Positions 8,455 through 48,473 of a stretch of DNA of 64,000 nt are shown here, one piece after another. Positions within the stretch are counted from its first letter, which is position 1; each line of letters starts with the position of its first letter. Both the position numbers and the translations under genes were made by a program. Where the stretch lies: positions 62,001 through 126,000 of the forward strand of contig NZ_BMMP01000009.1 in NCBI RefSeq assembly GCF_014645895.1, given 5' to 3'. The DNA comes from Streptomyces daqingensis (lineage in GTDB: Bacteria; Actinomycetota; Actinomycetes; Streptomycetales; Streptomycetaceae). The notes beneath the pieces were generated by a model. That model was given only the letters and a program-made list of their open reading frames with translations. It had not been told where the DNA came from and did not search any database.

Positions 8455-8560
8455 CTCATCCGAGTGTGATGAGGCAAGTCGGCGGCGTCTGCGTGCATGG
8501 GCGTCCTCGGACGCGAGTCACCTCGCTGTGCTGTCGACGGCGTGCGGCGGCAAACTGCTC

Positions 8561-8589
8561 TTGACAATCATTTCCATTTAACTGATGCT
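8561..8589 (+). promoter_or_regulatory. Promoter with overlapping Zur/Fur-like box
   Basis: TTGACA (8561-8566) and GATGCT (8584-8589) are spaced by 17 nt, a good vegetative promoter. The box TGACAATCATTTCCA (8562-8576) covers the -35 and spacer and resembles actinobacterial Zur sites of the form TGAAAATCATTTTCA, with two differences. This placement would allow repression by a metal-loaded regulator. Confidence 0.5.
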
Positions 8590-8766
8590 CGCTGCACCAG
8601 GCAGCCGCCCGGTTTCAGTCGTGCCGTATCGGGGTGTGCGACTCCGGGATGCGAGAGCTGCGGCGGGCTGCCTCGGAGTTCACCTCCTCCGGGAGGCGCG
8701 CGTCATGACGAAACGGCGCGGCCGGCGGAGACGGAACCCGCAGGAAGAACCCCAGCAGGAGGAGCC

Positions 8767-9549: not shown

Positions 9550-9558
9550 GGCCCGGGG

Positions 9559-10566: not shown

Positions 10567-10665
10567 GACCGGCCGACAACGAACCTGGCCGGGCTCGTCA
10601 ACGACGGCCAGCTCCCTGCTCGCAGAGCAGCCAGACACATTCACCACTCGACGAGAGAACTGAGA

Positions 10666-12824: not shown

Positions 12825-12879
12825 CCGGCTCACTCACGACGGACACGGCGTCCACCGTCCGTCCCGGAGAGGAGTGCGT

Positions 12880-14019: not shown

Positions 14020-14020
14020 C

Positions 14021-33015: not shown

Positions 33016-33489
33016 ATGACGCGGATCGGCATCACGGGGCACCGGAGCATCCCCCGGGCCGCGCGGCCGGAGATCCTGCACCGGCTCGTCAGCGAGCTGA
33101 AGGCTCCGGCGGACGAGGCGCTGAGCTGCCTGGCGGACGGCGCCGACCAGCTCTTCGCCGCCGTCGCCGTCGAGGCACGCGTTCCCCTCACCGCCGTGAT
33201 CCCCGCCGACGACTACGAGGAACACCTGGGGAGCGCCGCCGCCGTCGCCCGCTACCGCCGGCTTCTGGCGTCCTGCACCCGCACGGTGCGGATGCCCTAC
33301 CGCGTCAGCGGCCCTCCGGCGTACGCGGCTGCCGGCCACTGGATCGTCGACCACGTCGACCACCTCATCGCGGTGTGGGACGGCCTCCCGGCACGCGGCC
33401 TGGGCGGTACCGCGCAGATCGCCGCCTACGCGCGCGAGGTGCACGTCCCGGTGACGGTCGTCTGGCCGCAGGGCGTCGTCCGGGCCTGA
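33016..33489 (+). CDS. SLOG-like nucleotide-binding Rossmann-fold protein
   Basis: A 157-residue soluble protein. Key blocks are MTRIGITGHR at the start, ALSCLADGADQLFAAVA (about residue 35), a VIPADDYEEHL strand (about residue 60), and the glycine-rich ARGLGGTAQIAAYAREVHVP (about residue 130). This layout, with GxTGHR and a C-terminal GGTA loop, is that of the SLOG/DprA-LOG Rossmann superfamily that binds or makes nucleotides in conflict systems. It converges on a SLATT protein 14 nt away. The chosen ATG follows GAGGAGATG. The family call is by pattern; catalysis is unproven. Confidence 0.6.
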   Translation: MTRIGITGHRSIPRAARPEILHRLVSELKAPADEALSCLADGADQLFAAVAVEARVPLTAVIPADDYEEHLGSAAAVARYRRLLASCTRTVRMPYRVSGPPAYAAAGHWIVDHVDHLIAVWDGLPARGLGGTAQIAAYAREVHVPVTVVWPQGVVRA

Positions 33490-33502: not shown

Positions 33503-34429
33503 TCACGCGCTGCCGAACTGGGCCAGCCAGTCCGTGTGCTGCGGCGACACCAGCCGCTCGACCTCCGCGACGGCTTCGGCCCAGCGCTCCTCGCCGTGCT
33601 GCTCCTCGCCCGCCGGGAGCTCCTGCATGCTCGTCCCGGCCACGTCGAGCTCCTGCCAGATCAGCCGGTGCGCGTAGGTGAGCGGCTGCTGGCGCCGCAT
33701 CTCGCTCCAGGCGACCGCCGCCGCGGCGCATGCGGAGCACAGTCCGGTCAGGTCGTCGCCGATCATGCCGGCCGCCTTGACGACCGTCGAGAAGAAGGCC
33801 AGGAGCGTGAGCAGGGCGATGACGCTCGACCAGACGGCCGCTGAGCGCTGGGACCGCTCGGATTTTCCGCCGTACCATGCCAGTTGCTCCTGGACGCGGT
33901 CCCGCAGGTATATGTCGCGGCGGCTGAGGAACGACTTCTGCCGTACCCTGCGCATCGCCTCCGTGATCTGCCCTTCGCCGGCCGACTGAGGTCCGCAGCG
34001 CGCGGTGTCCCAGCCGGCCCTGCGTAACTCCCGCAGCCCGTCCTCGAGGCGGGTGGCGAACAGCGCGTCCGGGTTGGGGGTCCCGATCCGGAACTCTCCG
34101 CCGCCCGCCATGTAGAGCCAGCAGAGGCTCTTGACCATCTCGGCGGCCGCGCGGTGGGCGTGGTGATGGACGCGGGCCCGCCTCCGGCTCGTGTGGATGC
34201 CGGCCCCCAGCGCCAGCGCATATGCCGCGGCCGCCAGCCACGCCCCGGGCGACCAGTCGGCCCAGTTGGCCACGGCGGATATGAGGGTGGCGAGCAGCAG
34301 CAGGGAGAGCTGTGAGCGGACCGCCTTCACGGCCTCGCTCTGGCGGTGGACGGCGAGGCGGTCGTTGGCCAGGTACAAGGGGGCAAGATCGTTAGCATCG
34401 AAGGTCGTTCGGGGAGCGACGGGAGCCAC
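33503..34429 (-). CDS. SLATT-domain (DUF4231-like) membrane protein
   Basis: A 308-residue protein with two paired membrane segments: LSLLLLATLISAVANWA with WLAAAAYALALGAGIHT (about residues 40-80), and SSVIALLTLLAFFSTVV with LCSACAAAAVAWSEM (about residues 215-255). The segments are separated by charged helical stretches. This is the SLATT arrangement proposed by Aravind and colleagues for pore-forming effectors of nucleotide-sensing conflict systems. It converges with the SLOG-like gene and diverges from the FxsA peptide gene. The pore function is inferred from the family. Confidence 0.7.
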   Translation of the reverse strand: MAPVAPRTTFDANDLAPLYLANDRLAVHRQSEAVKAVRSQLSLLLLATLISAVANWADWSPGAWLAAAAYALALGAGIHTSRRRARVHHHAHRAAAEMVKSLCWLYMAGGGEFRIGTPNPDALFATRLEDGLRELRRAGWDTARCGPQSAGEGQITEAMRRVRQKSFLSRRDIYLRDRVQEQLAWYGGKSERSQRSAAVWSSVIALLTLLAFFSTVVKAAGMIGDDLTGLCSACAAAAVAWSEMRRQQPLTYAHRLIWQELDVAGTSMQELPAGEEQHGEERWAEAVAEVERLVSPQHTDWLAQFGSA

Positions 34430-34555
34430 GGGCAGCCTCCAGTCCGTCAGGTCGGCCTCGGCGAAAATCTGCTCTCGTTGCGAACGTGCATGACGTGCCG
34501 TCAGCCCCTAGGATGCGAGCAAATATCCCGCCAGCACACACGAGAGCAGCGAGCC

Positions 34556-34720
34556 ATGAAGCCATGTGTGGTTACGAACACCGTCGCTGCGACCAAGCGG
34601 CTGGCGGCCCTCCATGCGATCGACCCCCGTGCTGCCGCTGTCCGCCGGACGACTACACGGCTGCTGCAGGTCTCCGGTTCGGGACCTCTGAAGTCCGCCA
34701 CCTTCAACTCGGCCGTCTGA
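34556..34720 (+). CDS. fxsA: FxsA-like FxSxx-COOH precursor peptide
   Basis: A 54-residue peptide that ends in FNSAV, an exact FxSxx-COOH terminus. The leader region is basic with an ALHAIDPRAAAVRRTTTRLL helix. FxsA peptides are substrates of the FxsB radical SAM enzyme, encoded 114 nt downstream, which is reported to form a three-residue cyclophane by linking the aromatic ring to a nearby side chain. The ATG has GAGAGCAGCGAG in front, a modest ribosome-binding site. The short gene is easily missed but the terminal motif plus the neighbours make it secure. Confidence 0.85.
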   Translation: MKPCVVTNTVAATKRLAALHAIDPRAAAVRRTTTRLLQVSGSGPLKSATFNSAV

Positions 34721-34834
34721 CACTTCACTTGAGTCCGTCGGTACCGTGACGCCAGTCCGGGTCCGCCGGTCCCGACACGACGCCGAAAAAAAGTGTCTTC
34801 CCTCCTGGCATGGCCGTTAAACGCGCCCTAGGGT

Positions 34835-37009
34835 GTGCCGGTGTCAACCGCGCTCCGGCAGTTAGTGCTCAAGATCCACAGCAGATGCGATCTCGCCTGC
34901 GACCACTGCTACATCTATGAGCACGGCGACTCCACCTGGGCCTCGCTGCCGAAGGTGATGTCGGAGGAGACGGCCGCCCGTGTGGCCCGGCGCTTCTCGC
35001 AGTACGCCGTGGACCAGGGGCTGGAGGAAGTCCTCGTCATCCTCCACGGCGGTGAGCCGCTTCTCGTCGGCCCGCGGCGCATGCGGGCCATCTGCGAGCG
35101 GCTGATCGAGGAGCTGTCGCCCGTCACCTCGCTCGACCTGCGGATCCACACCAACGGCGTCACGCTGAACCGCACATTCCTGCGGCTCTTCGACGAGTTG
35201 GGCGTGAAGGTCGGGATCTCGCTGGACGGCGACCGGGCCGCGAACGACAGGCACCGGCGGGACCGGCGGGGCCGCAGCAGTTACGACCGCGTGCTGCGTG
35301 CCGTGGAGTTACTGAGCGAGCCCGAGTTCCGCCATCTGTACCAGGGGCTGCTCTGCACGGTCGACGTCGCCAACGATCCCGTGGCCGTCCACGACGCGCT
35401 CGTCGCGCTCGATCCGCCCAGGATCGACTATCTGCTTCCGCACGCGACGTGGGATCACCCGCCCGGCCGCCCCGTGACGGTCTCAGGGCGCGAGGAGACT
35501 CCCTACGCCGACTGGCTGCTGGCCGTATTCGACCGGTGGGACGAGCAGGGGCAGGCCACGCCCGTGCGCCTCTTCGACTCCGTCCTCTCCACCCTGCGGG
35601 GCGGTCCGAGCCTCACGGAAGCCTTGGGGCTGGAACCGTCCGACCTGGCCGTCGTGGAGACGGACGGCAGCTTCGAGCAGGCGGACTCGCTGAAGACGGC
35701 CTTCGACGGCGCCGCCGCGACCGGATACGACGTCCACCGGCACGGATTCGAGACGCTGGCCGCGCACCCGGGGGTGCTGGCCCGACAGACCGGCATCGAC
35801 GGGCTGGCGGCGGAGTGCCGCTCCTGCCCGGTGGTCGACTCCTGCGGGGGCGGCCTGTACGCGCACCGCTACCGCAGCGGCCACGGCTTCCGGAACCCGT
35901 CCGTATACTGCGCGGACCTGAAGTCGCTTATTCAAGGCGTGGCCGAACGCGTGACCAGCTGGGACACGTCGCCGGTGGTGCGGAGCGACGACGAACTCGC
36001 CTACGAGCAGTCGGTGCTGAACCGCACCGTGCTCGCCGGGCTCGAACCGGAGGGGCCGGTGTGGGAGGCGTTCACCGCGCTCGACGCCTCCCCGGCCGGA
36101 GCGGCGGGACTCGACGACGTGCTCCGCTACCCCTACGTCCGCGGTGCTCTCCTTGCGGCGGCCGCCGGACGCGGCGCCGGCGCCGCCCGGCTCGGTGCCA
36201 CGGCCGTGGCTGCGGCGGTGCGCTCCCGGACCGAGGTGAGGGTGTCCTGGCGAGGTCAGGGGCCCCGGTTGCACCTGCCGTCCCTCGGCACCCTGACCCT
36301 CGGCGGAATGAGGGGCTCCCGCGGAGGCGGAGCGGCGGTCGAGGGCCGCATCGAGGTGGTCGTCCACGGCGACGGCCGCACCCTCGACGTCCGGGACGAG
36401 GACGCGGGGGTCAAGAAGACCGTGGTGCTCCGCCAGGGCGAGGACGCCTGGCGTCCGCTGGAAGTGCTCCACGACGGGGTGCTCCTCGACGACGCCGACC
36501 CCCACCGCGACTGCTTCGGCGTTCCCGACGCCGGGCGCCTCAGCGAGGCGGAGCGCGAGGCGTTCTCCGGGCTCTGGAAGGAGGCGCGGCGCCTCCTCGA
36601 GTCGCGGGTGTCCGGGCAGACCCGCAGGGTCGTCGCGGTGACTCCGCTCCGGCCGGGTACGGGCGTTCATCTGTGCCTGCACGGTGAGGGCGCTCTCGGC
36701 GTCGGCATCGACACGTCTCCCGAGGAGCTGGCGCTGGAGGTCTTCCGCGCCACGCGGCAGGGCTGGCTGAGGGCGCTGCGGGAGTGCACGGATCTGACGC
36801 TCGTCGGAAGCCCCGCGGGGCAGCTGCTCGACGAAGCCGACCGGTCCGCCGCCGAGGCGGTGTTCGCCTGGTCGCCCGGCGACCGCGACCACGCCCGGGA
36901 CAACGCCGGCCGTGCCCTCGACGCGATCGAGTCCGGCCACCTCACGGGCAGCGGACGTGAGGTCGCCGCCCGGCTGCGCGCGGAACTCGCCGCGGGACGC
37001 TGTGGCTGA
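34835..37009 (+). CDS. fxsB: FxsB radical SAM/SPASM peptide maturase with C-terminal extension
   Basis: A 724-residue protein. The radical SAM domain has CDLACDHCYIYEH (CxxxCxxC, residues 18-25) and ILHGGEPLLVGP. The SPASM region has CRSCPVVDSCGGG with more cysteines downstream (about residues 328-365). This half matches FxsB. The second half (from about 400) resembles the fused HExxH-type beta-hydroxylase domain found in related proteins, but no HExxH is present; the corresponding helix reads FRATRQ. The start is GTG; a second GTG two codons later is possible. The stop overlaps the acetyltransferase GTG by 8 nt. Confidence 0.85.
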   Translation: MPVSTALRQLVLKIHSRCDLACDHCYIYEHGDSTWASLPKVMSEETAARVARRFSQYAVDQGLEEVLVILHGGEPLLVGPRRMRAICERLIEELSPVTSLDLRIHTNGVTLNRTFLRLFDELGVKVGISLDGDRAANDRHRRDRRGRSSYDRVLRAVELLSEPEFRHLYQGLLCTVDVANDPVAVHDALVALDPPRIDYLLPHATWDHPPGRPVTVSGREETPYADWLLAVFDRWDEQGQATPVRLFDSVLSTLRGGPSLTEALGLEPSDLAVVETDGSFEQADSLKTAFDGAAATGYDVHRHGFETLAAHPGVLARQTGIDGLAAECRSCPVVDSCGGGLYAHRYRSGHGFRNPSVYCADLKSLIQGVAERVTSWDTSPVVRSDDELAYEQSVLNRTVLAGLEPEGPVWEAFTALDASPAGAAGLDDVLRYPYVRGALLAAAAGRGAGAARLGATAVAAAVRSRTEVRVSWRGQGPRLHLPSLGTLTLGGMRGSRGGGAAVEGRIEVVVHGDGRTLDVRDEDAGVKKTVVLRQGEDAWRPLEVLHDGVLLDDADPHRDCFGVPDAGRLSEAEREAFSGLWKEARRLLESRVSGQTRRVVAVTPLRPGTGVHLCLHGEGALGVGIDTSPEELALEVFRATRQGWLRALRECTDLTLVGSPAGQLLDEADRSAAEAVFAWSPGDRDHARDNAGRALDAIESGHLTGSGREVAARLRAELAAGRCG

Positions 37010-37784
37010 CCACGGCACCCCCCGCACGGTCCCGGAGTTCGTGTCGTTCCTGGCCGGGTCGGGCGTCGCAGCGGGAGGCACGCTGCTCGTCCACGCCTCC
37101 CTCAGCGGAATCGGCATGACACCCGCGGACGTCCTCACGGCCCTCCGCGCCGTCCTCGGGGCCCAAGGCACGCTGGTGGTCCCCGCGTTCACGCCCGAGA
37201 ACTCCGACACGTCGCAGGCGTACCTGGAACGCACCGCGCACATGTCGCCCGCCGAGCGGGAGGCCGACCGGGCCGCCATGAAGCCGTTCGATCCGCGGAC
37301 GACGCCCTGCCCGGCCATGGGGGCGCTCGCCGAGCACGTGCGGTGCGCACCGGACGCGTACCGCAGCGCGCACCCCCAGTCGTCGTTCGCCGCCGTCGGC
37401 GCGCGGGCCGCGCAGCTCATGGACGGGCACGACCCGGAGTGCCACCTGGGAGAGCGTTCGCCGCTCGGGAAGCTGTACGAGGAGGATGCTCAAGTGCTCC
37501 TGCTGCGTGCCGACTTCGGGCAGTGCAGCGCCTTCCACCTGGCCGAGTACAGGGCTCGGCCCCACCCGCCGACGCGCTCGTACCGCTGTGTGGCCGGGAG
37601 CCCGGGGCGCTGGGTCACGTACCGGGACGTCGTCCTGGACGACAGCGATTTCACGGCTATCGGATCCCGGATGCAGGGACGCCTCGTCACCCGCCGTGTC
37701 CTGCGGGGAAGGCCCGTCTCACTCTTCGGGTTGCGCGACGCCGTCGACCACGCATGCAAGGACATGCTCGCGCATCGCCGATGA
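37002..37784 (+). CDS. AAC(3)-family N-acetyltransferase in FxSxx operon
   Basis: A 260-residue protein of the aminoglycoside 3-N-acetyltransferase fold. Blocks seen are TLLVHASLSGIG (about residue 28), VVPAFTPENSD, RSAHPQSSFAAVGARA (about residue 120) and GERSPLGKLYEEDAQVLLL, with CSAFHLAEYRA carrying the likely catalytic histidine. It overlaps fxsB by 8 nt, so it is part of the operon. Genes of this fold recur next to FxsB, where the substrate is likely the peptide or another amine and not an aminoglycoside. Resistance is not implied. Confidence 0.82.
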   Translation: MADHGTPRTVPEFVSFLAGSGVAAGGTLLVHASLSGIGMTPADVLTALRAVLGAQGTLVVPAFTPENSDTSQAYLERTAHMSPAEREADRAAMKPFDPRTTPCPAMGALAEHVRCAPDAYRSAHPQSSFAAVGARAAQLMDGHDPECHLGERSPLGKLYEEDAQVLLLRADFGQCSAFHLAEYRARPHPPTRSYRCVAGSPGRWVTYRDVVLDDSDFTAIGSRMQGRLVTRRVLRGRPVSLFGLRDAVDHACKDMLAHRR

Positions 37785-37858
37785 ATGTCTTGTATTAAGC
37801 GGCCACCGTCCCCGAATCATCGGGCACATTAGGTATCCGATCGTGGCCAGGGGGGTGT

Positions 37859-39181
37859 ATGGAGGCGGGGGACGGCGGGACGCGACGCATGCCGCAACAG
37901 ACGGAGGAGGGCCCGTACTTCTTCCTGAGCTACGCGCACACGCCTGCCGACCCCGACGGCCCCGACCCCGACCACTGGGTACGCGTCCTGTTCAAGGACC
38001 TGTGCCGGGACATCCTCCAGCTGACCACGCTGCCGGGCGCCGCCGACGCCGGGTTCATGGACAGGCAGCTGCGGGCGGGGGACGGCTGGCCGGACAAGCT
38101 GAGCCAGAACCTCGCCGGCTGCCGGGTGTTCGTACCGCTGTACGCGCCCCGGTACTTCAGCAGCATGGAGTGCGGGCGGGAATGGTATGCGTTCAACGAC
38201 CGCGTACTACGCGCCCGGCGCACGGGCCAGGGCGACTTCTCGGCCATCGTGCCCGCACTGTGGACTCCCGTCCCGCTGAACGACTTACCGGAGCCCGCCC
38301 GGCACATCCACGTCGACCACGCTGAGTACGGCACCGAGTACGCACGTGACGGGTTCTACGGGCTGATCAAAGTGAAGCGCTTGCACGACGCCTACTCGGA
38401 GGCCGTCTTCCGTCTCGCCCGGCGCATCGTCGACGTGGCGCGGACGTCCTCCCCGCCCCCGTGCGAACCCCGCGACTACGAGTCCACACCCAGCGCCTTC
38501 AGACCGCAGGGCAGCAGCGCCCGCTCCATCCACATCACCGTCGCCGCGCCCACGCGCTACACCCTGCCCGAGAACCGGACCCCCGCGCCGTACGGGACGA
38601 CGGCACAGGAATGGGGCCCCTACCAGGAGACGACGCGGCCCCTCGCCAAGGTCGTCAGCGAGCAGATCCGCTCGCTCGACTACCAGTTGAGCGTCTCCGA
38701 CTTCGACGAGCAGGCCGCGGCGGACTCGCAGGGCGCCTCGGCGGGCGCCGACAGGCCGAACGTCCTGCTGCTCGACTTCTGGGCGCTCGGCGACGAGGGG
38801 CGGCGCCGCCGGCTCGCCGCCTACGACGCGACTGCGCAGCCGTGGACGAGCATGGTCGTGCCGCGCTGCGGCGACGACGTGCAGAACCGCGGCGAGGAGG
38901 GCGAACGGCTCTTCAGATCCGTCGCCGACACCCTGCCCACCCTCACCGCGCGGGGCAAACTCTCGGGCTGCCGCACCGCCGTCGACGGAGTGCCGACGCT
39001 GGACGCCTTCAGCCACGTGCTGCCGAAGGTCGTCGCCGAGTCGGCCAACCTCTTCTTCACCCACGCCAAGGCTCACCCGCCGGCCGGGGAGCGCATGCCG
39101 CGCCCCCGCCTCACCGGCCCCACACAGTGGGAGCCGGACGGAGAGCCACCGCCGTCACTCGCGCCTGGAGGGTCCGCATGA
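37859..39181 (+). CDS. fxsC: TIR-like protein FxsC
   Basis: A 440-residue protein with two TIR-like regions. The first (about residues 20-190) begins GPYFFLSYAHTP and contains WPDKLSQNLAGCRVFVPLYAPRYFSS and CGREWYAF, as in FxsC proteins. The second (about residues 280-400) is the PNVLLLDFWAL half. In FxSxx-COOH systems FxsC works beside FxsT, but its enzyme activity is untested. An AT-rich stretch upstream (TTGTATTAAG and TAGGTAT) suggests an internal promoter. The last codons overlap fxsT as ATGA. Confidence 0.85.
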   Translation: MEAGDGGTRRMPQQTEEGPYFFLSYAHTPADPDGPDPDHWVRVLFKDLCRDILQLTTLPGAADAGFMDRQLRAGDGWPDKLSQNLAGCRVFVPLYAPRYFSSMECGREWYAFNDRVLRARRTGQGDFSAIVPALWTPVPLNDLPEPARHIHVDHAEYGTEYARDGFYGLIKVKRLHDAYSEAVFRLARRIVDVARTSSPPPCEPRDYESTPSAFRPQGSSARSIHITVAAPTRYTLPENRTPAPYGTTAQEWGPYQETTRPLAKVVSEQIRSLDYQLSVSDFDEQAAADSQGASAGADRPNVLLLDFWALGDEGRRRRLAAYDATAQPWTSMVVPRCGDDVQNRGEEGERLFRSVADTLPTLTARGKLSGCRTAVDGVPTLDAFSHVLPKVVAESANLFFTHAKAHPPAGERMPRPRLTGPTQWEPDGEPPPSLAPGGSA

Positions 39182-42100
39182 ACGCTGCCCGCGACGGACG
39201 CATCATCACGTTCTACTCGTACAAGGGCGGCACCGGGCGGACGATGGCGCTGGCCAACACCGCCTGGATCCTCGCCGCGAGCGGCAAGCAGGTGCTCGCC
39301 GTCGACTGGGACCTGGAGGCCCCGGGCCTGCACCGCTTCTTCCACCCCTTCCTCGACTCGAACGTCCTCGGAGCGACCAGCGGCGTCATCGACATCATCA
39401 CGGAGTACTGCTGGCAGGCGACGACGAGCGGGCCCCGCACCGGCCCCTGGCACCGGGACTACGCGCGCGTCGAACCGCACGTCGTCTCCCTCACGCCCGA
39501 GCGGCTGGGGTGGCGGTTCCCGAAGGAGGCCACCCTCGACTTCCTCTCGGCGGGCCGGCAGAACCGCGAGTACTCCGCGAGCGTGTCGTCGTTCGAGTGG
39601 GACAACTTCTACGAGCGGCTCGGCGGCGGCCTGTTCCTCGACGCGCTCCGCGCCGACATGAAGGCCCACTACGACTACATCCTCATCGACTCCCGCACCG
39701 GGCTGTCCGACAACGCCGACATCTGCACCATCCACATGCCCGACCTGCTCGTCGACTGCTTCACGCTCTCCGATCAGGCCCTGGACGGCGCCGCCGCGAT
39801 CGCCCGCAGCGTCGAGGCCGGGTACAGGGGCCGTCCCATCCGGGTGCTGCCGGTGCCGATGCGGATCGACGAAGGAGAGAAGGAGAAGGTCGACGCGGGC
39901 CGGGCGCTGGCCCGCCTGAAGTTCGACGGGCTCCCCAGGGGACTGACGGGGGAGGAACTCACCACCTACTGGGGCGCGGTGGAGATCCCGTACCGGCCGT
40001 ACTACGCGTACGAGGAGACGCTCGCCACGGTCGGCGACGAACCGGGCGTCGCCAACTCGCTGCTCTCCTCCTTCGAGCGGCTCACCGCGGTCCTCACCGA
40101 CGGGGAGGTGACGTCGCTGCCGGCGGTCGCCGAACAGGTGCGGCTGCGGTGCAGGGACGCCTTCCTGCGGAGGCGCCCCCACACCCCCACGACCGAGGTC
40201 ACGCTCGTCTACGTCGCCGAGAACCGCATGTGGGCGGACTGGATCGAAGCCGTCCTCACCCATGCCGGGTGCCACGTGACGCAGCGGGACCTCTCCTACG
40301 AGCAGGCCGGAGGCACGCCGGCCACCGGGGGGCCCGAGGCCAGGACGCTGGTGCTGCTCTCGCCGTCGTTCATCAAGTCCCGCTGGGCGCAGGCCGCCTG
40401 GCGTTCCCTGACACACGCCGGGGACCCCGGGAACCCGGACCACCGGCTGTATCCGCTCCGCATCGAGGACGCGCGGCTGCCCGCCGCGTACCAGGAGTTC
40501 AACCCCGTCGACCTCAACCGCGCCGACGAGCAGCAGTGCATCGCCGCGCTGCTGCGATGCGCCGGCCTCATGCCGCAGGCGCTGGACGGGGCGAGCCCCG
40601 GACCGCGCTTCCCCGGCAGGGTCCCGGCGGTGTGGAACGCTCCGCTGCGCAACACCACCTTCACCGGACGCGACGAGGTGCTCGACCAGCTCCGCGACCA
40701 GCTCGCCGGCGGTGTGTCGGCCGTCCTGCCGCAGCCGCAGGCGCTCTACGGCCTCGGGGGCGTCGGCAAGACGCAGGTCGCCATCGAGTACGTGCACCGC
40801 TTCCTCGCCGACTACGACCTGGTGTGGTGGATATCCGCCGAGGAGACGGAGCAGGTCGTCGCCTCGCTCGCCGAACTCGCCGCCAGGCTCGGCGCCCCCG
40901 CCGACGACATGGCCCTCGCGTGCTCCGAGGCCGTCCGCCTGCTCAGCCGCGGCACCCCCACCGAACAGTGGCTGCTCGTCTTCGACAACGCCGACGACCC
41001 CGCGCAGCTCACCCAGTACTTCCCCGCCGCGGGGAGCGGCCACATCCTCGTCACCTCCCGCAACCAGGCGTGGGCGCAGCACGGTGCCTCCCTCCCCGTC
41101 GACGTCTTCCGCCGCGAGGAGAGCGTGGAGCATCTGACGCGGCGTGCACCCGCGCTGAGCACCGGCGAGGCGGAGCAGGTGGCCGCCACCCTCGGCGACC
41201 TGCCGCTCGCCGTGGAGCAGGCGGCGGCGTGGCTCGCCGAGACCGCCAGCCCGGTGGACGAGTACCTCGCCCAGCTCGCGGCGCAGACCGTCGAGGTGCT
41301 GGCCCTGATGAACAGGGCCCCCAGCTACCCCGAGTCGGTCGCCGCGACGTGGAACGTCTCCATCGCCCGTCTCAGGGAGCGCTCACCGGCGTCCGTGCGC
41401 CTCCTGCAGCTGTGCGCCTTCCTGGCTCCCGAGCCCATCTCGAACCAGCTGCTCTACAGCAGGGAGATGATCGAGGCGCTGAAGCCGTACGACCCGGCGC
41501 TGCAGGAGAAGCTCGTCCTGGGGCGCGTCATCCGGGAGATCGGCCGGTTCGCGCTGGCCAAGATCGACCAGATGGGCAACAGCATCCAGGTGCACCGGCT
41601 CGTCCAGGCCATCATCCGCTCCCAGCTCAGCGAGGAGGAGCAGCGGGAGGCACGGCACGTCGTGCACACCGTCCTGTCCAGCGTCAGACCGGACGAGGAC
41701 GAGCCGATCGACGACCTCGGCACATGGCCGCGCTTCGACCTGATCTGGCCCCACCTGGGGGCGTCCGACGCCCGGCACTGCGTCGAACCGGAGACGCGCA
41801 GGCTGCTCATCGACCGCGTCCGCTACCTGTGGAAGCGCGGCGACTTCCCCAGTGCCCGCCATCTCGCCGAGGACCTCATCGAGGACTGGCGCGGGCTGCT
41901 CGGCGAGGACGACGTGCAGTACCTGTACCTGCGCGGGCAGCTCGCCAACATCCAGCGCTCCATGGGCCTCTACGTCGAAGCCCGGCAGATCGACACGGAC
42001 CTGCTCGACCGGCAGAAGGACGTGCTGGGCGACAGCCATCCGCACGCCTACGTGACCACCTCCAGCCTCGCCAGCGACCTCGCAGCGCTGGGCGAGTACC

Positions 42101-43113
42101 AGGAGGCAGTCGAGCTGGCCCGCCAGGCGCACGAGGGCTTCGGCCAGATCTTCCACGACTCCCATCCCCGTACCCTGTCCGCCGCCAACAACCTGGCACT
42201 CGCGCTCCGGATGGTCGGCCGCTTCGGCGAGGCCCGCGCGCTCGACCAGGACGTCCTGGACCGCCGCGTCGAAGTCCTCGGCCCGGAGCATCCCTACACC
42301 CTCGCCTCGGCCGCGGCCCTCGGCCGGGACCTGCGCGAGGTCGGCCGCTACAGCGAGTCCACGGCGCTGCTCTCGCGGACGTACGAGTCGCACAAGCGCA
42401 TACTCGGCAAGTCCTTCCCCGGCACCCTCGCCTGTGCCAAGTCGCTCGCGGTGTCGTTGCGCCGCGACGGGAAGCTGGAGGACGCCCGGCGCCTGACGCA
42501 GGCCACCCAGGCGCACTACCGCGCCCAGTACGCCACCCCCACGCCCGCCAGCCTGGCCTGCGACCTCAACCTGGCCGCGGACCTCTTCGCCGCCGACGAC
42601 CGCGAGGCCGCGCGCCGTGTCGCCGAGGAGGCGCTGGCGGAGTACATCAAGGTCCCCGGCGAGGAGCATCCGTACACCCAGGCCGCGCTCAACAACCTCG
42701 GGGTGTTCCACTGGGGCTGCGGCGACGCGGCGAAGGCGTCGCAGCTGCTGAAGCGTGCGTGGGAGCGGATGACGGAGGTGCTCGGGGACCAGCATCCCCA
42801 CACCCTGTTCTGCGCGGTGAACTACGCCAACGCCCTTGCCGACGGGGGGGAGCTGGAGGAGTCGCGGGCCCTGGAGGCGACCGCCGTGACCGCCCTGCGG
42901 AGCACGCTGGGGCCGCACCATCCGGAGACGCTGGGCGTCATCACCAACCAGGGCCTCACCCTGGCCGCGCTGGGACTCCCGGGCGAGGCGCACCGGCTGC
43001 GTGAGGACGCGCTCAGCGAACTGCGGCTGCTGCTCGGCGAGGACAGCGGCATCCTGCAGGTCGCGTCGGACGAGCGGCGGATCTACCGCGACCTGGAGCC
43101 ACTCGCGGTGTGA
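39178..43113 (+). CDS. fxsT: FxsT: ParA-like, TIR-like, NB-ARC and TPR STAND protein
   Basis: A 1311-residue multidomain regulator. Residues 8-260 form a SIMIBI ParA-like domain with the deviant Walker A YKGGTGRTM and VDWDLEAPGLHRFF. A TIR-like region (TLVYVAENRMWADWIEAVLTH, about 345) follows. The NB-ARC ATPase has ALYGLGGVGKTQVAIEYVH (about 525) and WLLVFDNADD (about 600). From about residue 900, a series of 42-residue TPR units repeats LGxxHPxT. FxsT is the FxSxx system TPR protein, probably a STAND switch that senses a trigger. It starts after GGAGGG and overlaps fxsC by 4 nt. Confidence 0.88.
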   Translation: MNAARDGRIITFYSYKGGTGRTMALANTAWILAASGKQVLAVDWDLEAPGLHRFFHPFLDSNVLGATSGVIDIITEYCWQATTSGPRTGPWHRDYARVEPHVVSLTPERLGWRFPKEATLDFLSAGRQNREYSASVSSFEWDNFYERLGGGLFLDALRADMKAHYDYILIDSRTGLSDNADICTIHMPDLLVDCFTLSDQALDGAAAIARSVEAGYRGRPIRVLPVPMRIDEGEKEKVDAGRALARLKFDGLPRGLTGEELTTYWGAVEIPYRPYYAYEETLATVGDEPGVANSLLSSFERLTAVLTDGEVTSLPAVAEQVRLRCRDAFLRRRPHTPTTEVTLVYVAENRMWADWIEAVLTHAGCHVTQRDLSYEQAGGTPATGGPEARTLVLLSPSFIKSRWAQAAWRSLTHAGDPGNPDHRLYPLRIEDARLPAAYQEFNPVDLNRADEQQCIAALLRCAGLMPQALDGASPGPRFPGRVPAVWNAPLRNTTFTGRDEVLDQLRDQLAGGVSAVLPQPQALYGLGGVGKTQVAIEYVHRFLADYDLVWWISAEETEQVVASLAELAARLGAPADDMALACSEAVRLLSRGTPTEQWLLVFDNADDPAQLTQYFPAAGSGHILVTSRNQAWAQHGASLPVDVFRREESVEHLTRRAPALSTGEAEQVAATLGDLPLAVEQAAAWLAETASPVDEYLAQLAAQTVEVLALMNRAPSYPESVAATWNVSIARLRERSPASVRLLQLCAFLAPEPISNQLLYSREMIEALKPYDPALQEKLVLGRVIREIGRFALAKIDQMGNSIQVHRLVQAIIRSQLSEEEQREARHVVHTVLSSVRPDEDEPIDDLGTWPRFDLIWPHLGASDARHCVEPETRRLLIDRVRYLWKRGDFPSARHLAEDLIEDWRGLLGEDDVQYLYLRGQLANIQRSMGLYVEARQIDTDLLDRQKDVLGDSHPHAYVTTSSLASDLAALGEYQEAVELARQAHEGFGQIFHDSHPRTLSAANNLALALRMVGRFGEARALDQDVLDRRVEVLGPEHPYTLASAAALGRDLREVGRYSESTALLSRTYESHKRILGKSFPGTLACAKSLAVSLRRDGKLEDARRLTQATQAHYRAQYATPTPASLACDLNLAADLFAADDREAARRVAEEALAEYIKVPGEEHPYTQAALNNLGVFHWGCGDAAKASQLLKRAWERMTEVLGDQHPHTLFCAVNYANALADGGELEESRALEATAVTALRSTLGPHHPETLGVITNQGLTLAALGLPGEAHRLREDALSELRLLLGEDSGILQVASDERRIYRDLEPLAV

Positions 43114-43193: not shown

Positions 43194-44069
43194 CTACGCG
43201 GGCGCGCCGTCCACCACCCAGCGCAGCGCCCTCGGCAGCGCCCGGAACGCGGCGAAGTGCGCGGCGGCCGGTTCGAGCACGGAGTGCGCGCGGGGCATAC
43301 GGGCGGCAAGCCACGCGGCGTGCGAGGCCGGGGAGAACGGGTCCCGGCGCCCGTGCCACAGCAGTACGGGCGTCCGCACCTCCGCGGGGTCGAAGCCCCA
43401 CGGACTGCACAGTGCCAGCGCGTCGTCGATCCAGCCGTAGGGGGACCGCCGTACGGCCTCCACGTAGGTGCGCAGCAGCATGGACCTCAGCCCCGTGTCG
43501 GAGAGGATGCGCAGGTCGTCGTCGGTCAGTTCGTCCCGCAGCGCCTCGATGAGGTGGGCGGGGTCGGTGCGGATCGCTTCCGAGCGCGGGATGAGGCGCC
43601 GGGCGAGACCTTCCGGGTCCCGGACGGCCGTGCGGAAGTCGTCGATGTTCGACTCGGCCATGCCCTCGTACCAGTCGAGTCCTTCCGCATCCACCGGAGC
43701 GAGGCTGACGAGGGCGGCCACCCGCGTCACCCTCTCCGGAAGCAGCGCGGCGCAGGCGAGGGCGTGGGGGGCTCCGGCCGACCGGCCGACGACGGCGAAC
43801 CGGTCGACGCCGAGCCTGTCCGCGACGGCCACCACGTCGCGGATGCCGTCGGAGACGCGCCGGCCGGGCTGGCGGTCCGAACCGCCGTAGCCGGGACGGT
43901 CGTACGAGATCAGGCGGGTGCGCCGCTGGTAGAGGACCATGTCGCGCGGCCGGGGCCCCATCCGGCAGCCGGGCATGCCGTGCAGGAGGAAGACCGGTCG
44001 CCCGTTCGGATCCCCCGCCCACTCCACCCTGAGCTGGCGCCCGTCCTCAGCCCGCATCCATTCACGCAC
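43194..44069 (-). CDS. Alpha/beta hydrolase
   Basis: A 291-residue alpha/beta hydrolase. The oxyanion-hole motif is LLHGMPGCRMGP (about residue 28), the nucleophile elbow is GRSAGAP (Ser about 97), a late acid lies in WHGRRDPFSPASH (Asp about 240) and the catalytic His candidate is in AAAHFAAF near the C-terminus. The elbow GxSxG fits a serine esterase, lipase or epoxide-hydrolase-like enzyme; substrate unknown. The GTG start follows GGGAGGGC. It is convergent with fxsT and not obviously related to it. Confidence 0.82.
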   Translation of the reverse strand: MREWMRAEDGRQLRVEWAGDPNGRPVFLLHGMPGCRMGPRPRDMVLYQRRTRLISYDRPGYGGSDRQPGRRVSDGIRDVVAVADRLGVDRFAVVGRSAGAPHALACAALLPERVTRVAALVSLAPVDAEGLDWYEGMAESNIDDFRTAVRDPEGLARRLIPRSEAIRTDPAHLIEALRDELTDDDLRILSDTGLRSMLLRTYVEAVRRSPYGWIDDALALCSPWGFDPAEVRTPVLLWHGRRDPFSPASHAAWLAARMPRAHSVLEPAAAHFAAFRALPRALRWVVDGAPA

Positions 44070-44210
44070 GCTGCCCTCCCCCGGCTCGGCCCTTCGTGCG
44101 TCCACCGTGTCTCTACCCGTGGGGCGACGGCGGCTCACCCCGCCCGGTGCGGGGACCCGGGGGCAGGTCGGCAGGTCCCTCTGCAGCGGGGCGGGGGCGG
44201 TGACGCCGCG

Positions 44211-44822
44211 TCAGTACCCCGGCGAGGGGGAGAGGCGCCGGGCCGCCTGGGCCTTGGCGGACTCCAGCAGCGCCAGCAGGACCTGTTTGCTGGAACCGCG
44301 GTGCCGCACGTCGCACATGACGACGGGGGCGGGGGTGCGCAGGTTCATGGCCGTCTGGACCTCCTGCGCCGAGAAGTCCGACTGCCCCCAGAAGCAGTTG
44401 ACGCCGACGGCGAAGGGGATCTGGCGCTGCTCGAAGAAGTCGACGGAGGCGAAGCTGTCGGTGAGGCGCCGCGGGTCGGCCAGGACCACGGCGCCCAGCG
44501 AACCGAGCGCCAGGTCGTCCCACATGAACCAGAAGCGCTCCTGGCCGGGTGTCCCGAACATGTACAGCACATGGTCGAGATCCAGCGTGATGCGGCCGAA
44601 GTCCATGGCGACAGTCGTGGTCGACTTCTCCGGGGTGCCGGCGAGGTCGTCGACGCCGAGGCTGGCCTGCGTCATGTACTCGTCGGTCTCCAGCGGCGGG
44701 ACCTCGCTGACCGAGCTGATCATGGTGGTCTTGCCTACCCCGAAACCACCTGCGACCAGGATTTTCAGCGCTGTCGGCATGGCGACGGAGCCACCCGGCC
44801 GCTCAGAGCTTGCGGATACCAC
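44211..44822 (-). CDS. CvnD-type small GTP-binding protein
   Basis: A 203-residue GTPase. The P-loop is VAGGFGVGKTT (about residue 23), the switch II area is FGTPGQERFWFMWDD (about residue 92), and SVDFFEQRQIPFAVGVNCFWG supplies a later base-recognition region. It is the fourth gene of a conservon (cvnA-B-C-D). The GTG start overlaps the DUF742 stop by 20 nt, as is usual for conservons, and is preceded by AGAGGG. CvnD is thought to be the output switch of the CvnA kinase-like complex at the membrane. No cytochrome P450 (cvnE) follows. Confidence 0.85.
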   Translation of the reverse strand: MVSASSERPGGSVAMPTALKILVAGGFGVGKTTMISSVSEVPPLETDEYMTQASLGVDDLAGTPEKSTTTVAMDFGRITLDLDHVLYMFGTPGQERFWFMWDDLALGSLGAVVLADPRRLTDSFASVDFFEQRQIPFAVGVNCFWGQSDFSAQEVQTAMNLRTPAPVVMCDVRHRGSSKQVLLALLESAKAQAARRLSPSPGY

Positions 44823-45183
44823 GGATTACCCTCTCAAGTAGTTCCACGCTGGGGGCGCTCGTCTCCTCGCCCGGCGTCTTGATGGCGACCAGGGACTTGG
44901 CGAGCAAGTCCCCGCAGAGCACCTTCACCACGCTCGCCGGCAGGTCCAGAAGGGCCGCGATCTCCACGATCGCCAGTGGCCGCTCCCGGCATAAATCGAG
45001 AATCGCCACCAGCTCCGGCTGCACGCCTTGGACTGCGCTGCTCTTGGCAGAACCAGTAGTGGCCACCTGTGTGATGAGCGGGAAGTCGGCGCCGTTGGGT
45101 TGTGTACGTCCGCCGGTGATGGCATAGGGCCGGATCAGGTATCCGGACCCTTCATCGAACCAGGACGTCTTCTTCGAGGCCAC
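44803..45183 (-). CDS. CvnC-type DUF742 winged-helix protein
   Basis: A 126-residue DUF742 protein. The first part carries SGYLIRPYAITGGRTQPN and the second part is a winged helix (ELVAILDLCRERPLAIVEIAALLDLPASVVKVL). It is the third conservon gene, between the Roadblock-type CvnB and the GTPase CvnD, and ends ERVIRGIRKL, the usual overlap region with cvnD. In conservons CvnC forms a complex with CvnA, CvnB and CvnD. Confidence 0.87.
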   Translation of the reverse strand: MASKKTSWFDEGSGYLIRPYAITGGRTQPNGADFPLITQVATTGSAKSSAVQGVQPELVAILDLCRERPLAIVEIAALLDLPASVVKVLCGDLLAKSLVAIKTPGEETSAPSVELLERVIRGIRKL

Positions 45184-45189
45184 AGACCC

Positions 45190-45615
45190 TTACCGCGGCT
45201 GCCCGGCGGCCGGGACTCCCGTGCGAGGTGCGGCGCTGAGGTAGGCGCCGACCTGCTGGACGATCCTGGTCATCTCGTACGCCGCCATCCCGGCGTCGAC
45301 TCCCGACGAGGCGAGCATGGCGAGCCGTGCTCCCTGGCCCGCGTTGGTGACGAAGAGGAACGCGTTCTCCATCTCGATGACCGTCTGCCGGACCTGGCCG
45401 CCCTCGAAACGGTGGGCGGCACCGCGCGAGAGGCTCTGCAGCCCGGAGGCCACCGCCGACAGGTGCTCGGCGTCGTCCCGGCTGAGGTCCTTGGAACGCG
45501 CGAGCAGCAGTCCGTCCTGAGACAGCACGATGGCGTGGTGAGTCTCGGGGACCCCGGTCACCAGCTTGTCAAGCAGCCAATTCAGGCGGCCGTCGGTTTG
45601 GTTCCGGTCAGTCAT
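45190..45615 (-). CDS. CvnB-type Roadblock/LC7 protein
   Basis: A 141-residue Roadblock/LC7 domain protein. Conserved segments are LNWLLDKLVTGVPETHHAIVLSQDGLLL (about residue 11) and DDAEHLSAVASGLQSLSRG. Roadblock proteins of conservons act as GTPase-activating partners of CvnD. The chosen ATG at 45615 overlaps the cvnA stop by one base (TGATG); a longer ORF begins 5 codons earlier. Confidence 0.87.
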   Translation of the reverse strand: MTDRNQTDGRLNWLLDKLVTGVPETHHAIVLSQDGLLLARSKDLSRDDAEHLSAVASGLQSLSRGAAHRFEGGQVRQTVIEMENAFLFVTNAGQGARLAMLASSGVDAGMAAYEMTRIVQQVGAYLSAAPRTGVPAAGQPR

Positions 45616-48473
45616 CACAGGTCCTTCCACACAGAATCATCGGCGCCCGTCCCATGACCGGGCGTTTCCGCCTGCTGATCATCGTCGGGCTCTGCAGGCT
45701 TGGAGGAGCGGGCGCGTTTGCTTCCCGACTGGATGGCGGCCATCGTCGCGCCCGCTCTGTCCGGTGTGGACATGCCGGCGTCGGGGTTCTCCGGCACGGA
45801 GAAGCCGTGCGACGACTGGCGCAGAGGCTCGGCGAGGTTCTCACCCCGCACTCTGACGGGCAGCCTTGCGGGGGACGCCAGGGGCTGGTCGCGCGTTTCC
45901 TGGGGCGCCCGGTCCTCGGCGGGTCCGGGCGGCTCCGCCTCGCCGGTGAGGCTGTGTGGGGGGTGTGGGCGCGACGCGGCCATAGGGGCGTCCTCCACAG
46001 AGGGTTCCGTGTCGGCGGGCCCCGAGAGGAGCCCCGCGCCGTGCGGGCTCCTGCCGGAGCCCGGCGAACTCATCGTCATCGAGCCGAGACTGATGCCCCG
46101 GCCGAAGGTGTCGAGCATTCCCGGGCCCGGCACGCTGAGCGTTCCGGGGCTCAGCGGGGAGGTGCCCAGGGTTTCGGGGGAGTCGGCCCCCGGGGTCGAC
46201 GGCAGCAGGCCGGCGCCCGCGTAGGCGGGGTAGCCGCCGTACTGGTCGAGGTGCGGCTGCGGGCTGGCGTCCTCCGTGCCGGGCTGCTTCTCGGCCGCCG
46301 GGCGTGCGCCGTTGCTCTCCGCCGGACGTCCCGGCATGGCGCTGGGCTCGCTCGTCCAGGCGGTCGCGCCGACGGGGAACGGCTCCGGGTCCGCGTACGA
46401 GGTGTCGGGCGCGGTGAGTTCCGGCGTCGACGCCGCGGAGGCGATGGCCGGAGCGGCGGGTGCCGACGGCAGCTCTTCCTGCTCGTCCGCCTCCTGACGG
46501 GCGTCCGTCACGAGAGTCGACAGCAGGGACTGCGTCTCCTCCAGCAGATCGGAGGGGAGGAGCACGACGGCGAGTGTGCCGCCGTAGGCCGACTTCTGCA
46601 GCGTGACTTCGAGGCCGTGGCGGTTCGCCAGCCGGGCAACGACGAACAGGCCGAGACGCGGAGCCTCGCCCAGCGCCATCATGTCGGGCTTCGGCGGGTC
46701 GGCGAGCATGCGGTTAAGCTCGTCGTACTGCTCGGTGGGCATGCCCAGGCCGCGGTCGACGACTTCGAGCGCGAGGCCCCTGGCCACCTTCTCTGCGCTG
46801 ACGCACACACGGGTGTCCGGCGGGGAGAACGACGTGCCGTTCTCGATGAGTTCGGCGAGGAGGTGGCCGACGTCGGCGACGGCCTGGCCGACCAGGGAGA
46901 CCGGCGGGGCGGGCAGGGCCTCGACCCTGCTGTAGTCCTCGGTCTCGGATATGGCGCTGCGCAGCACGTCGTAGATGGGGACGGCCTTGCTCCACCGCCG
47001 CCCGGGGAGGGCGCCGCCGAGGATCAGCAGGTTCTCGGTGTGGCGCCGTACACGCGTCGCCAGGTGGTCGACGGCGAAGATGTCCTTCAGCAGCTTGGAG
47101 TCCTCGTGCTCCCGCTCCAGCTTGTCGAGCTTGGGGATCATCCGGTTGATGAGGACCTGCGTGCGGCGTGCGAGGCCCAGGAAGACGGTCTCCGCGCCCT
47201 CACGCCCGCGCGCCTGCTGGACCGCCGTCTCGACGACCGTCTGCCACTGCCGCTGGATCTCCTGGGCGAGCCAGGCGATCTCGTCGCTGCCGTACTCGCC
47301 CGGCATGGACTGCGGCGCGGGGTCGGACTTCTCGTCCTCGTCGAGCTGCGCGATCAGCTGGGGGAACGTGCTGCCCGCCCATTCGCCGGTCGCGTGCTGC
47401 AGGCGGGAGAGACGGCCCGTCAGGGAGCGTGCGAAGCGCACCGCCACCACGGCACCGCCGGCGAGGACGCCGAGGACGAGGACGGTGCCGACCGCCGCGC
47501 CCAGCAGGAGCCCGTCCGCCCGGCCGGAGCCGTCGGAGACGACGCCGTTGAGCGAGTCGGAGCCGATGCGCCGCAGCTCCTTGCCGACGACGCCGGCCGA
47601 CTCCTGCCACTCGTCGGTCTTCTGCGTCAGCGACGAGGGACGCGACGAAGCGGCCTCCTCGGCCTCCACCAGCGTCTTCCACTGCTGGGTGCCGGTCAGC
47701 CGCTCGTACGCCCCGGCCGCGTCGCCGGCCAGGTTCCCGGGCTGCAGCGCGGCGCGGGTCTGCCGCTGCACCGCGAGGTACCGGCCGAACTCCGCGCGTT
47801 CGGCGGTCTCCGAGGGGTTCTCCGCGAGCGGGTTCGGCGCGACCTTCGGACGCGGGCCGGCGAGCTGCGCCTCCTCGCGGGAGAGCACCTCGGTGAAGTC
47901 CGTCAGGGACGCCGTGGCGGCCGCGGAACGCGACAGGCCGCCGTCGTCGGTCCGGGCGGTCGCCGCCAGCAGGCCGGTGGCCTCGGTGACGGTGTCGGAG
48001 TAGTAGCTCAGGGCTCCGGGCGCGGAGACCTTGCGGCCGTTGACGGCGCTGCGCTGCTTCGAGAGCTTGCCCAGCGCGTCGTTCAGGTCGTCCGCCTGGT
48101 TCCGGACCGCGGGGTCGGCGGAACCGAGGCCCACGCGCGCCTCACGGAAGTCGGCGACGGCCGAGTCGGTGCCGCTGCGCGCGTTGTCGAGCGCGGTCCG
48201 CGCGGATTTCGTGGAAGCGGCCTGCCACGCGGCGGTGAGCCGGCGTTCCTCCTGCAGCCGAGCTGCGAGGCTGATCGCCGGCTTGCCCGCGGTAGAGGCG
48301 GTCTCCGCGTCACCTCTTAATGTCAGCGCCTCCTGGACGAGGCCGTTCGCCGCGTATCCCCACAATCCCGTGAGAGCGAGCATGGGAATGACGATGGGCA
48401 GGGCCACCGAGTAACGCAGAGATCTGCGGTGGAGGGCCCTGGGCACTGAGTGCCGGTCGCGTATGCCTGGCAT
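45615..48473 (-). CDS. CvnA-type sensor histidine kinase-like protein
   Basis: A 952-residue membrane sensor. One helix lies near residues 22-45 and another near 320-350; the extracytoplasmic part between them is an NIT-type helical sensor domain. A HAMP-like segment precedes the kinase-like helix NRMIPKLDKLEREHED and the HATPase block ELIENGTSFSPPD with DRGLGMP and GLFVVARLANRHG. A classical phospho-accepting H-box is not visible. The last 270 residues are Pro/Ser-rich and disordered. It heads the cvnA-B-C-D operon, a GPCR-like signalling module of Streptomyces. Confidence 0.87.
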   Translation of the reverse strand: MPGIRDRHSVPRALHRRSLRYSVALPIVIPMLALTGLWGYAANGLVQEALTLRGDAETASTAGKPAISLAARLQEERRLTAAWQAASTKSARTALDNARSGTDSAVADFREARVGLGSADPAVRNQADDLNDALGKLSKQRSAVNGRKVSAPGALSYYSDTVTEATGLLAATARTDDGGLSRSAAATASLTDFTEVLSREEAQLAGPRPKVAPNPLAENPSETAERAEFGRYLAVQRQTRAALQPGNLAGDAAGAYERLTGTQQWKTLVEAEEAASSRPSSLTQKTDEWQESAGVVGKELRRIGSDSLNGVVSDGSGRADGLLLGAAVGTVLVLGVLAGGAVVAVRFARSLTGRLSRLQHATGEWAGSTFPQLIAQLDEDEKSDPAPQSMPGEYGSDEIAWLAQEIQRQWQTVVETAVQQARGREGAETVFLGLARRTQVLINRMIPKLDKLEREHEDSKLLKDIFAVDHLATRVRRHTENLLILGGALPGRRWSKAVPIYDVLRSAISETEDYSRVEALPAPPVSLVGQAVADVGHLLAELIENGTSFSPPDTRVCVSAEKVARGLALEVVDRGLGMPTEQYDELNRMLADPPKPDMMALGEAPRLGLFVVARLANRHGLEVTLQKSAYGGTLAVVLLPSDLLEETQSLLSTLVTDARQEADEQEELPSAPAAPAIASAASTPELTAPDTSYADPEPFPVGATAWTSEPSAMPGRPAESNGARPAAEKQPGTEDASPQPHLDQYGGYPAYAGAGLLPSTPGADSPETLGTSPLSPGTLSVPGPGMLDTFGRGISLGSMTMSSPGSGRSPHGAGLLSGPADTEPSVEDAPMAASRPHPPHSLTGEAEPPGPAEDRAPQETRDQPLASPARLPVRVRGENLAEPLRQSSHGFSVPENPDAGMSTPDRAGATMAAIQSGSKRARSSKPAEPDDDQQAETPGHGTGADDSVWKDL

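Follow-up and report, generated by a model that had tools for sequence, protein, structure and literature searches.

An eight-gene FxSxx-COOH peptide block of Streptomyces daqingensis with TIR, STAND, SLOG and SLATT proteins

Stand-alone FxSxx systems of actinobacteria were described in eLife in 2020 (PMC7159879), which proposes a role in conflict, with the peptide as toxin or signal, for those that have an AP-ATPase bearing TPRs together with a MinD/ParA-like domain. The locus described here lies in a 64,000-nucleotide stretch of Streptomyces daqingensis (contig NZ_BMMP01000009.1, positions 62,001 to 126,000, forward strand; hereafter the window, in whose numbering all positions are given) and shares with those systems the FxSxx peptide, the radical SAM/SPASM enzyme, the AP-ATPase with TPRs and the extra MinD/ParA-like domain. 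The published account names a zincin peptidase as part of the core, which we equate by inference with the HExxH domain, whereas the FxsB of the window is without HExxH. The text of its FxSxx section makes no mention of an AAC(3)-fold enzyme, SLATT, SLOG, a hydrolase or HExxH loss. Already known, besides the conflict-system idea, are NCBI models for FxsA, FxsB, FxsC, FxsT and the inactivated extension. An earlier note on this DNA had called the system functionally open; a role in conflict had already been predicted for stand-alone FxSxx loci in PMC7159879.

Four other groups of described systems resemble parts of the locus. Triceptide pathways (MscB, XncB, OscB; ChlB) likewise use a SPASM radical SAM enzyme and link an aromatic residue to residue i+2 (PMC11002830); the window, known here from its genes alone, differs in the coupling to TIR, STAND, SLOG and SLATT genes. 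Thoeris (ThsB TIR, ThsA SIR2-SLOG) also brings together a TIR with a glutamate and a SLOG-fold protein in one locus, whereas in the window no SIR2 domain was found among the eight block genes (Pfam/NCBIfam), the SLOG protein is separate and of YpsA type, SLATT would take the effector part, and the locus further includes a STAND protein and a ribosomally synthesised and post-translationally modified peptide (RiPP). The HaaA/HaaT system (NCBIfam NF041717) pairs a cyclophane RiPP with a TPR partner, and its HaaT model weakly matches FxsT at 45.6 bits, far under the HaaT cut-off of 1125. The acyltransferases FrbF, YokD and AAC(3) share the PF02522 fold with the window enzyme, which falls in an FxsB-linked clade of its own and scores under the AAC(3) cut-offs. 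Pfam recognised neither vWA nor MoxR among the eight genes, which sets the block apart from the VMAP ternary conflict system. The block and its parts are as follows.

33016-33489, forward strand: SLOG-domain protein of YpsA type, 157 amino acids (aa), assigned by predicted fold, with no Pfam or NCBIfam name; convergent with the SLATT gene
33503-34429, reverse strand: predicted two-transmembrane SLATT effector protein (SLATT_3 and SLATT_1; PF18184 and PF18181); divergent from fxsA
34430-34555: divergent intergenic region of 126 bp, presumed from its position to hold the promoters of the SLATT gene and fxsA
34556-34720, forward strand: fxsA, precursor peptide of 54 aa, called from its open reading frame (ORF) and FNSAV end (TIGR04268 20 bits, below the cut-off of 28)
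34703-34717, forward strand: FxsA core motif F50-N51-S52-A53-V54, with a cross-link from the F50 ring to S52 C-beta expected from MscB
34835-37009, forward strand: fxsB, predicted radical SAM/SPASM cyclophane synthase with C-terminal extension, 724 aa (TIGR04269 563.8 bits)
35966-36988, forward strand: FxsB residues 378-718, beta-hydroxylase-type extension with HExxH lost (NF040587 and alignment)
37002-37784, forward strand: AAC(3)/FrbF-fold acyltransferase (PF02522; FrbF 3sma); the GTG start chosen overlaps the fxsB stop
37859-39181, forward strand: fxsC, TIR domain (E108 at the presumed catalytic position) and FxsC C-terminal domain (NF040588, TIGR04276)
39178-43113, forward strand: fxsT, 1311 aa (NF040586, NF047398; Pfam TIR_2, NB-ARC, TPR)
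39199-39813, forward strand: FxsT KGGVGR MinD/ParA-like domain
40198-40551, forward strand: FxsT TIR domain
40738-41280, forward strand: FxsT NB-ARC STAND domain
41812-43104, forward strand: FxsT TPR region
43194-44138, reverse strand: alpha/beta-hydrolase (PF00561; S120, D266 and H294 conserved); convergent with fxsT

The unit is this eight-gene block, larger than the five genes that the earlier note had described. Those five, all on the forward strand in the order fxsA, fxsB, AAC(3)-fold gene, fxsC, fxsT, were recovered by ORFs and model matches, with overlaps in the window sequence between fxsB and the AAC(3)-fold gene and between fxsC and fxsT; to call the system complete was right insofar as an FxSxx-COOH system is present, but left out the SLOG, SLATT and hydrolase genes and the loss of HExxH. 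Comparison was made with 80 fxsB loci (flanks up to 10 kb) found with the window FxsB as query and therefore biased to near kin, some of them short contigs, which affects absence counts. ORFs of the window of at least 100 codons were matched to these loci at E <=1e-20, over a visible span of about 25-47 kb of the window. Within this span the widely shared matches, including antisense frames of the same genes, were confined to 33.0-44.1 kb; the upstream molybdate-type transporter genes (Pfam) were matched in at most 7 of the 80 loci, and the downstream sensor/GTPase genes in none at this threshold. This contrast between a shared 33.0-44.1 kb and unshared flanks places the SLOG, SLATT and hydrolase genes in the block. 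Profile searches of the same loci detected SLOG in 44, SLATT in 54 and the hydrolase in 67, and FxsT was matched in 72.

Gene order was tabulated for the 69 loci of at least 19 kb (ABH, alpha/beta-hydrolase; AAC, the AAC(3)-fold gene), HExxH loss being called by pattern with the truncated rows L054 and L067 among the 45 lost ones. The order SLOG SLATT' FxsA FxsB AAC FxsC FxsT ABH' was present in 28 of the 69 and the same order without AAC in 10; SLATT' stood at the opposite end, after ABH', in seven HExxH-bearing loci and one truncated row, and within the flanks of L045 and L051 the gene searches recovered ABH' FxsA FxsB only. AAC counts were taken from a single-sequence search; the AAC profile had mixed with FxsB via a fused ORF.

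Linkage was also surveyed across 150 Streptomyces genomes, a match counting as linked when no more than 25 kb separated it from any of the 65 top FxsB matches, with tiers of at least 541 bits for long FxsB, 230 bits for top-tier SLOG and 180 bits for AAC; the genomes are related, and the counts are not independent events. The long FxsB form gave 55 matches across 50 of the genomes. Linked to an FxsB match were 40 of 42 top-tier SLOG matches, 49 of 62 hydrolase matches (one more, G139:C608, on further search) and 34 of 51 AAC matches. In several genomes (e.g. G012, G039, G046 and G083) the hydrolase and SLOG genes had swapped sides yet still lay within 10 kb; that they remain linked despite rearrangement is the best indication that these genes work together. 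A plasmid search with FxsB at E 1e-60 returned five records matching the radical SAM part only, none covering 80%.

The eight genes probably make a small cross-linked peptide, and cyclophane formation on FxsA by FxsB is the likely first step. The 54-residue FxsA ends exactly in FNSAV, as had been read before; its TIGR04268 score lies under the curated cut-off, so its identity is carried by motif and context, not by the model. In 80 of 81 loci (the 80 relatives and the window; the sole miss is L066) the 600 nt preceding fxsB contain an ORF ending in F-x-S-x-x, against chance controls of 1/81 on the reverse strand and 0/76 three kb upstream, and the motif is therefore not chance. For FxsB, the TIGR04269 score of 563.8 bits compares with a cut-off of 370, and the nearest solved structure of its radical SAM half by sequence search is the ChlB domain (262 bits), in agreement with the earlier placement of FxsB among enzymes forming three-residue cyclophanes. 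MscB is presumably a member of the FxsB family. PMC11002830 reports that MscB joins Phe C4 to Ser C-beta.

The C-terminal half of FxsB matches NF040587 (FxsBH, the form with an inactivated beta-hydroxylase extension) at 214.3 bits, below the cut-off of 225, over positions 2-364 of 364. In the alignment no HExxH is found in the window FxsB where relatives read HEFQH; among the 77 scorable rows (four more were too short to score) HExxH is intact in 27 and lost in 50, the window among the latter. These states need three changes on the tree of the radical SAM half by a quick method, at least two of them forced by starred branches, and one loss spans a 51-row Streptomyces clade that includes the window (48 rows scored as lost, three not scorable). 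With its metal motif lost, the hydroxylase half probably does no more than bind peptide or give structure.

Such a loss could mark a decaying system on its way out, as the truncated FxsB, AAC and SLATT matches of the nearest relative might also suggest. We consider this very unlikely: the loss is common to the whole 51-row clade, and the ratio of non-synonymous to synonymous substitution rates (dN/dS, simple Nei-Gojobori) between the window and L003 is 0.17-0.51 across all eight genes. That nearest relative, S. himalayensis (L016, on a draft contig), keeps fxsA, fxsC, fxsT and the hydrolase, with dN/dS of 0.18-0.30 against the window; its SLOG gave no match, and the partial matches gave 0.16 for FxsB, 0.18 for SLATT and 0.56-0.58 for AAC.

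The residue preceding the core Phe is Thr or Ser in 47 of 54 rows without detectable HExxH (43 of 50 by hand count if four truncated rows are dropped) and in 1 of 26 rows with HExxH, L066 being left out for want of a peptide call. This covariation was treated as a clade trait, since it reflects mainly one event on the tree and does not extend to the two other losses, L063 (Ala) and L069 (Gly).

Between the SLATT gene and fxsA a 10-base motif, GAGTAAAGTC, recurs in 28 of 46 upstream stretches (e.g. L020-L031) against a shuffle maximum of about 3, the loci being related, and GCAACGGTGC occurs in 21 of the 46. The 10-base motif does not share the fxsA reading frame in the 12 loci inspected, is absent from the 126-bp intergenic stretch of the window, and is possibly an operator or promoter.

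The AAC(3)-fold protein has the fold expected of the AAC(3)-fold enzyme noted before (PF02522, 212.5 bits against a cut-off of 25), but stands nearer to FrbF and YokD than to the aminoglycoside enzymes: all five NCBIfam AAC(3) models touched were below cut-off (best 116.3 against 270 bits), FrbF (3sma) is the best solved relative at 146 bits with YokD second, and the HP..SF.A.G and HLAEYR segments align with both. All 52 rows retain H124, and 49 of them H179. A tree was built from 49 of the 52 linked sequences (at least 200 residues; 48 loci and the window), and the FxsB-linked proteins form one clade with support 89, drawn from HExxH-bearing and HExxH-less loci alike. Given this mixture, we reject the idea that the AAC(3)-fold enzyme substitutes for the lost HExxH enzyme. 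That the gene is a drug-resistance gene present here by accident, as the Pfam name aminoglycoside 3-N-acetyltransferase might imply, is extremely unlikely given the score of 116 bits against 270, the single clade of 49 linked rows, the overlap with fxsB and the natural fusion of FxsB and AAC in a single 1011-residue open frame of Streptomyces sp. CNH099 (L010:9923-12955).

Across the 150 genus genomes, 15 of 17 unlinked AAC matches of at least 180 bits occur in genomes with long FxsB. Nine of 11 such genes inspected (L083-L090 and L094) share one chromosomal neighbourhood, and their genomes, except G029, carry AAC-less fxs loci. The nine form a sister clade to the FxsB-linked proteins and are not nested inside it. 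A relocated AAC serving fxs loci in trans is not claimed, given the shared separate site, the sister-clade position and the lack of long FxsB in G029.

Clusters for peptide natural products commonly include radical SAM RiPP enzymes and acyltransferases, and among solved structures the AAC(3)-fold protein comes closest to FrbF, presumably a biosynthetic acyltransferase. The locus could accordingly make a secreted natural product. FxsA would then be cross-linked and acylated before its release as an antibiotic or signal, with the AAC(3)-like protein serving in tailoring or self-resistance and the TIR and STAND proteins as regulators. Against this, no exporter was recognised among the eight genes (Pfam/NCBIfam; no signal-peptide search was made), and the largest gene encodes an immune-type TIR/STAND protein that recurs in most of the loci, so that a secreted product appears unlikely.

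A TIR-like FxsC and an FxsT had both been reported before, and both assignments held. FxsC scores 223.5 bits against NF040588 (cut-off 130) and 148.1 bits against TIGR04276 (cut-off 55) and begins with a TIR domain, with TIR domains among its Foldseek matches. We take the catalytic glutamate of TIR domains to sit in a CxxE stretch; a glutamate, E108 in the window FxsC, occupies this presumed catalytic position in 71 of 73 rows. FxsT scores 1006.8 bits against NF040586 (cut-off 300) and 135.5 bits against NF047398, and has KGGVGR ATPase, TIR, NB-ARC and TPR matches. In its own TIR domain the site matching the presumed catalytic glutamate differs among the 73 rows (A 18, E 16, S 8, V 8 and further residues); the STAND Walker lysine and the KGGTGR arginine are kept in all 71 ungapped rows.

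The protein of 33016-33489 is, by its predicted structure, a member of the SLOG superfamily and its YpsA clade. Since it has no Pfam or NCBIfam match and a PDB profile search was empty, it is placed by predicted fold only. The AlphaFold2 model, from 45 sequences, has a mean predicted local distance difference test (pLDDT) score of 94.6; Foldseek returned B. subtilis YpsA (2nx2) first (E 2.7e-9), then DprA and ShosA, the last of which we take to be a defence protein. VIA-align gave Z 18.5 for YpsA (151 residues, 2.6 A), about 15 for DprA, 14.7 for ShosA and 9-12 for LOG, and about 8 for the SLOG of ThsA, a value near that (Z <8) below which the tool warns that a match may be a common arrangement. 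Among the 45 members two touch the Pfam model YAcAr (best E 0.087) and one YpsA (E 0.028), and single relatives weakly touch DprA and deoxyribosyltransferase models and, in one case, an ankyrin model. G42-A43-D44 is invariant in the 45 rows and agrees, matched without residue-by-residue superposition, with the GxD/E substrate-binding motif given for the YpsA clade in PMC6459960. The SLATT gene matches PF18184 (119.5 bits) and PF18181 (110.7 bits), both over cut-off, and the hydrolase matches PF00561 at 69.5 bits with S120, D266 and H294 kept in at least 95% of 68 rows.

The genome of the window encodes a further, less closely related SLOG (125.7 bits) at another site (G000:C4:165871-166353), and second-tier SLOGs are present in many genus genomes. 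Four HExxH-bearing Kitasatospora genomes have a second-tier SLOG some 11-14 kb upstream of fxsB; since the four also have many further genes of that region in common, linkage is not claimed.

We read the locus as an intracellular, peptide-gated conflict (immune-like) module, with a probability of roughly 0.42; the steps after cyclophane formation are inferred from domain content and linkage. FxsB would form a three-residue cyclophane by cross-linking the C-terminal F-N-S of FxsA, as its family and a characterised relative suggest. Leader removal must fall elsewhere now that HExxH is gone in the window lineage, and the hydrolase is the obvious candidate for leader cleavage, or else for product turnover. 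The AAC(3)/FrbF-fold enzyme would then acylate the product, most likely at the new N-terminal amine: lysine occurs in the last 12 residues of 8 of 80 peptides, the window peptide being one such among loci with a linked AAC, and this rarity near the core makes the free N-terminus the likelier acceptor. The modified peptide would gate FxsT, a STAND ATPase with TPR repeats, which may recruit FxsC, whose TIR would make a nucleotide signal derived from nicotinamide adenine dinucleotide (NAD). By analogy with Thoeris, the YpsA-type SLOG protein may sense or process this signal and the SLATT protein may open the membrane, stopping the cell. The presence of SLOG and SLATT beside a TIR with a glutamate points to such a Thoeris-like relay with a peptide-gated STAND protein upstream; PMC9503650 places cyclic ADP-ribose (cADPR) sensors in the YpsA-like clade, has ThsB TIR signals read by the SLOG of ThsA, and reports TIR and SLATT genes as neighbours in firmicute phages. 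The full sequence of events is doubtful: an acylated FxsA cyclophane that licenses the STAND ATPase, an FxsC TIR that makes a nucleotide alarm out of NAD, a SLOG of YpsA type that reads it and a SLATT pore that executes the cell, with a Streptomyces branch in which SLOG was gained, beta-hydroxylation lost and the core changed.

Several observations weigh against the conflict-module reading. SLOG is not universal, being detected in 44 of the 80 loci and in none of the 24 HExxH-bearing long loci; SLATT was not detected in 26 of the 80 and AAC not in 29, some of these on short contigs; and the hydrolase lacked a nearby FxsB in 12 of 62 cases across the 150 genomes. The block neighbours are the molybdate-type transporter and the sensor/GTPase group, not defence genes (Pfam), and PADLOC assigns the FxsT ATPase to no more than a candidate family and matches the radical SAM domain weakly to pVip. 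According to PMC12636437, HExxH enzymes of other RiPP pathways also cleave the peptide backbone, with one of them proteolytic in the absence of a leader peptide; HExxH loss could therefore matter more than assumed.

The block might instead be a developmental or stress-signalling module of filamentous actinomycetes, in which the cyclophane peptide reports cell state to the STAND protein and immunity plays no part. Going by their record titles, all 80 comparison loci are actinobacterial, in a scan biased to near kin, and the long form occurs in 50 of the 150 genus genomes. YpsA affects cell division and oxidative stress in Bacillus according to PMC6459960. Yet the block is present in part of the genus only and in differing surroundings, and the pairing of a TIR with a glutamate and SLATT is typical of conflict systems as treated in PMC9503650, so that we hold this alternative to be improbable beside an intracellular, peptide-gated conflict module.

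Two other groups of genes in the window were recorded. GTPase-like, roadblock-size and nitrate-sensor/HATPase genes occupy 44211-48473, in what we take to be the gene order of a conservon. The stretch 8497-15825, with a GC content of 0.65-0.70, holds methyltransferase, pyridoxal phosphate enzyme, DUF364 (heavy-metal chelation), major facilitator superfamily and periplasmic-binding genes and looks like a metallophore-type cluster.

A literature search, which took in the text of papers but few subscription journals, returned no account of the eight-gene set, of the FxsB-linked acyltransferase clade or of a SLOG/SLATT relay tied to FxSxx peptides, and no publication showing the product or purpose of a long-form FxsB locus. 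The long form nonetheless occurs in a third (50/150) of the sampled genus genomes. If the eight genes are one unit, they would join RiPP chemistry to TIR/SLOG/SLATT signalling, and cyclophane RiPPs would there be immune signals rather than secreted antibiotics.

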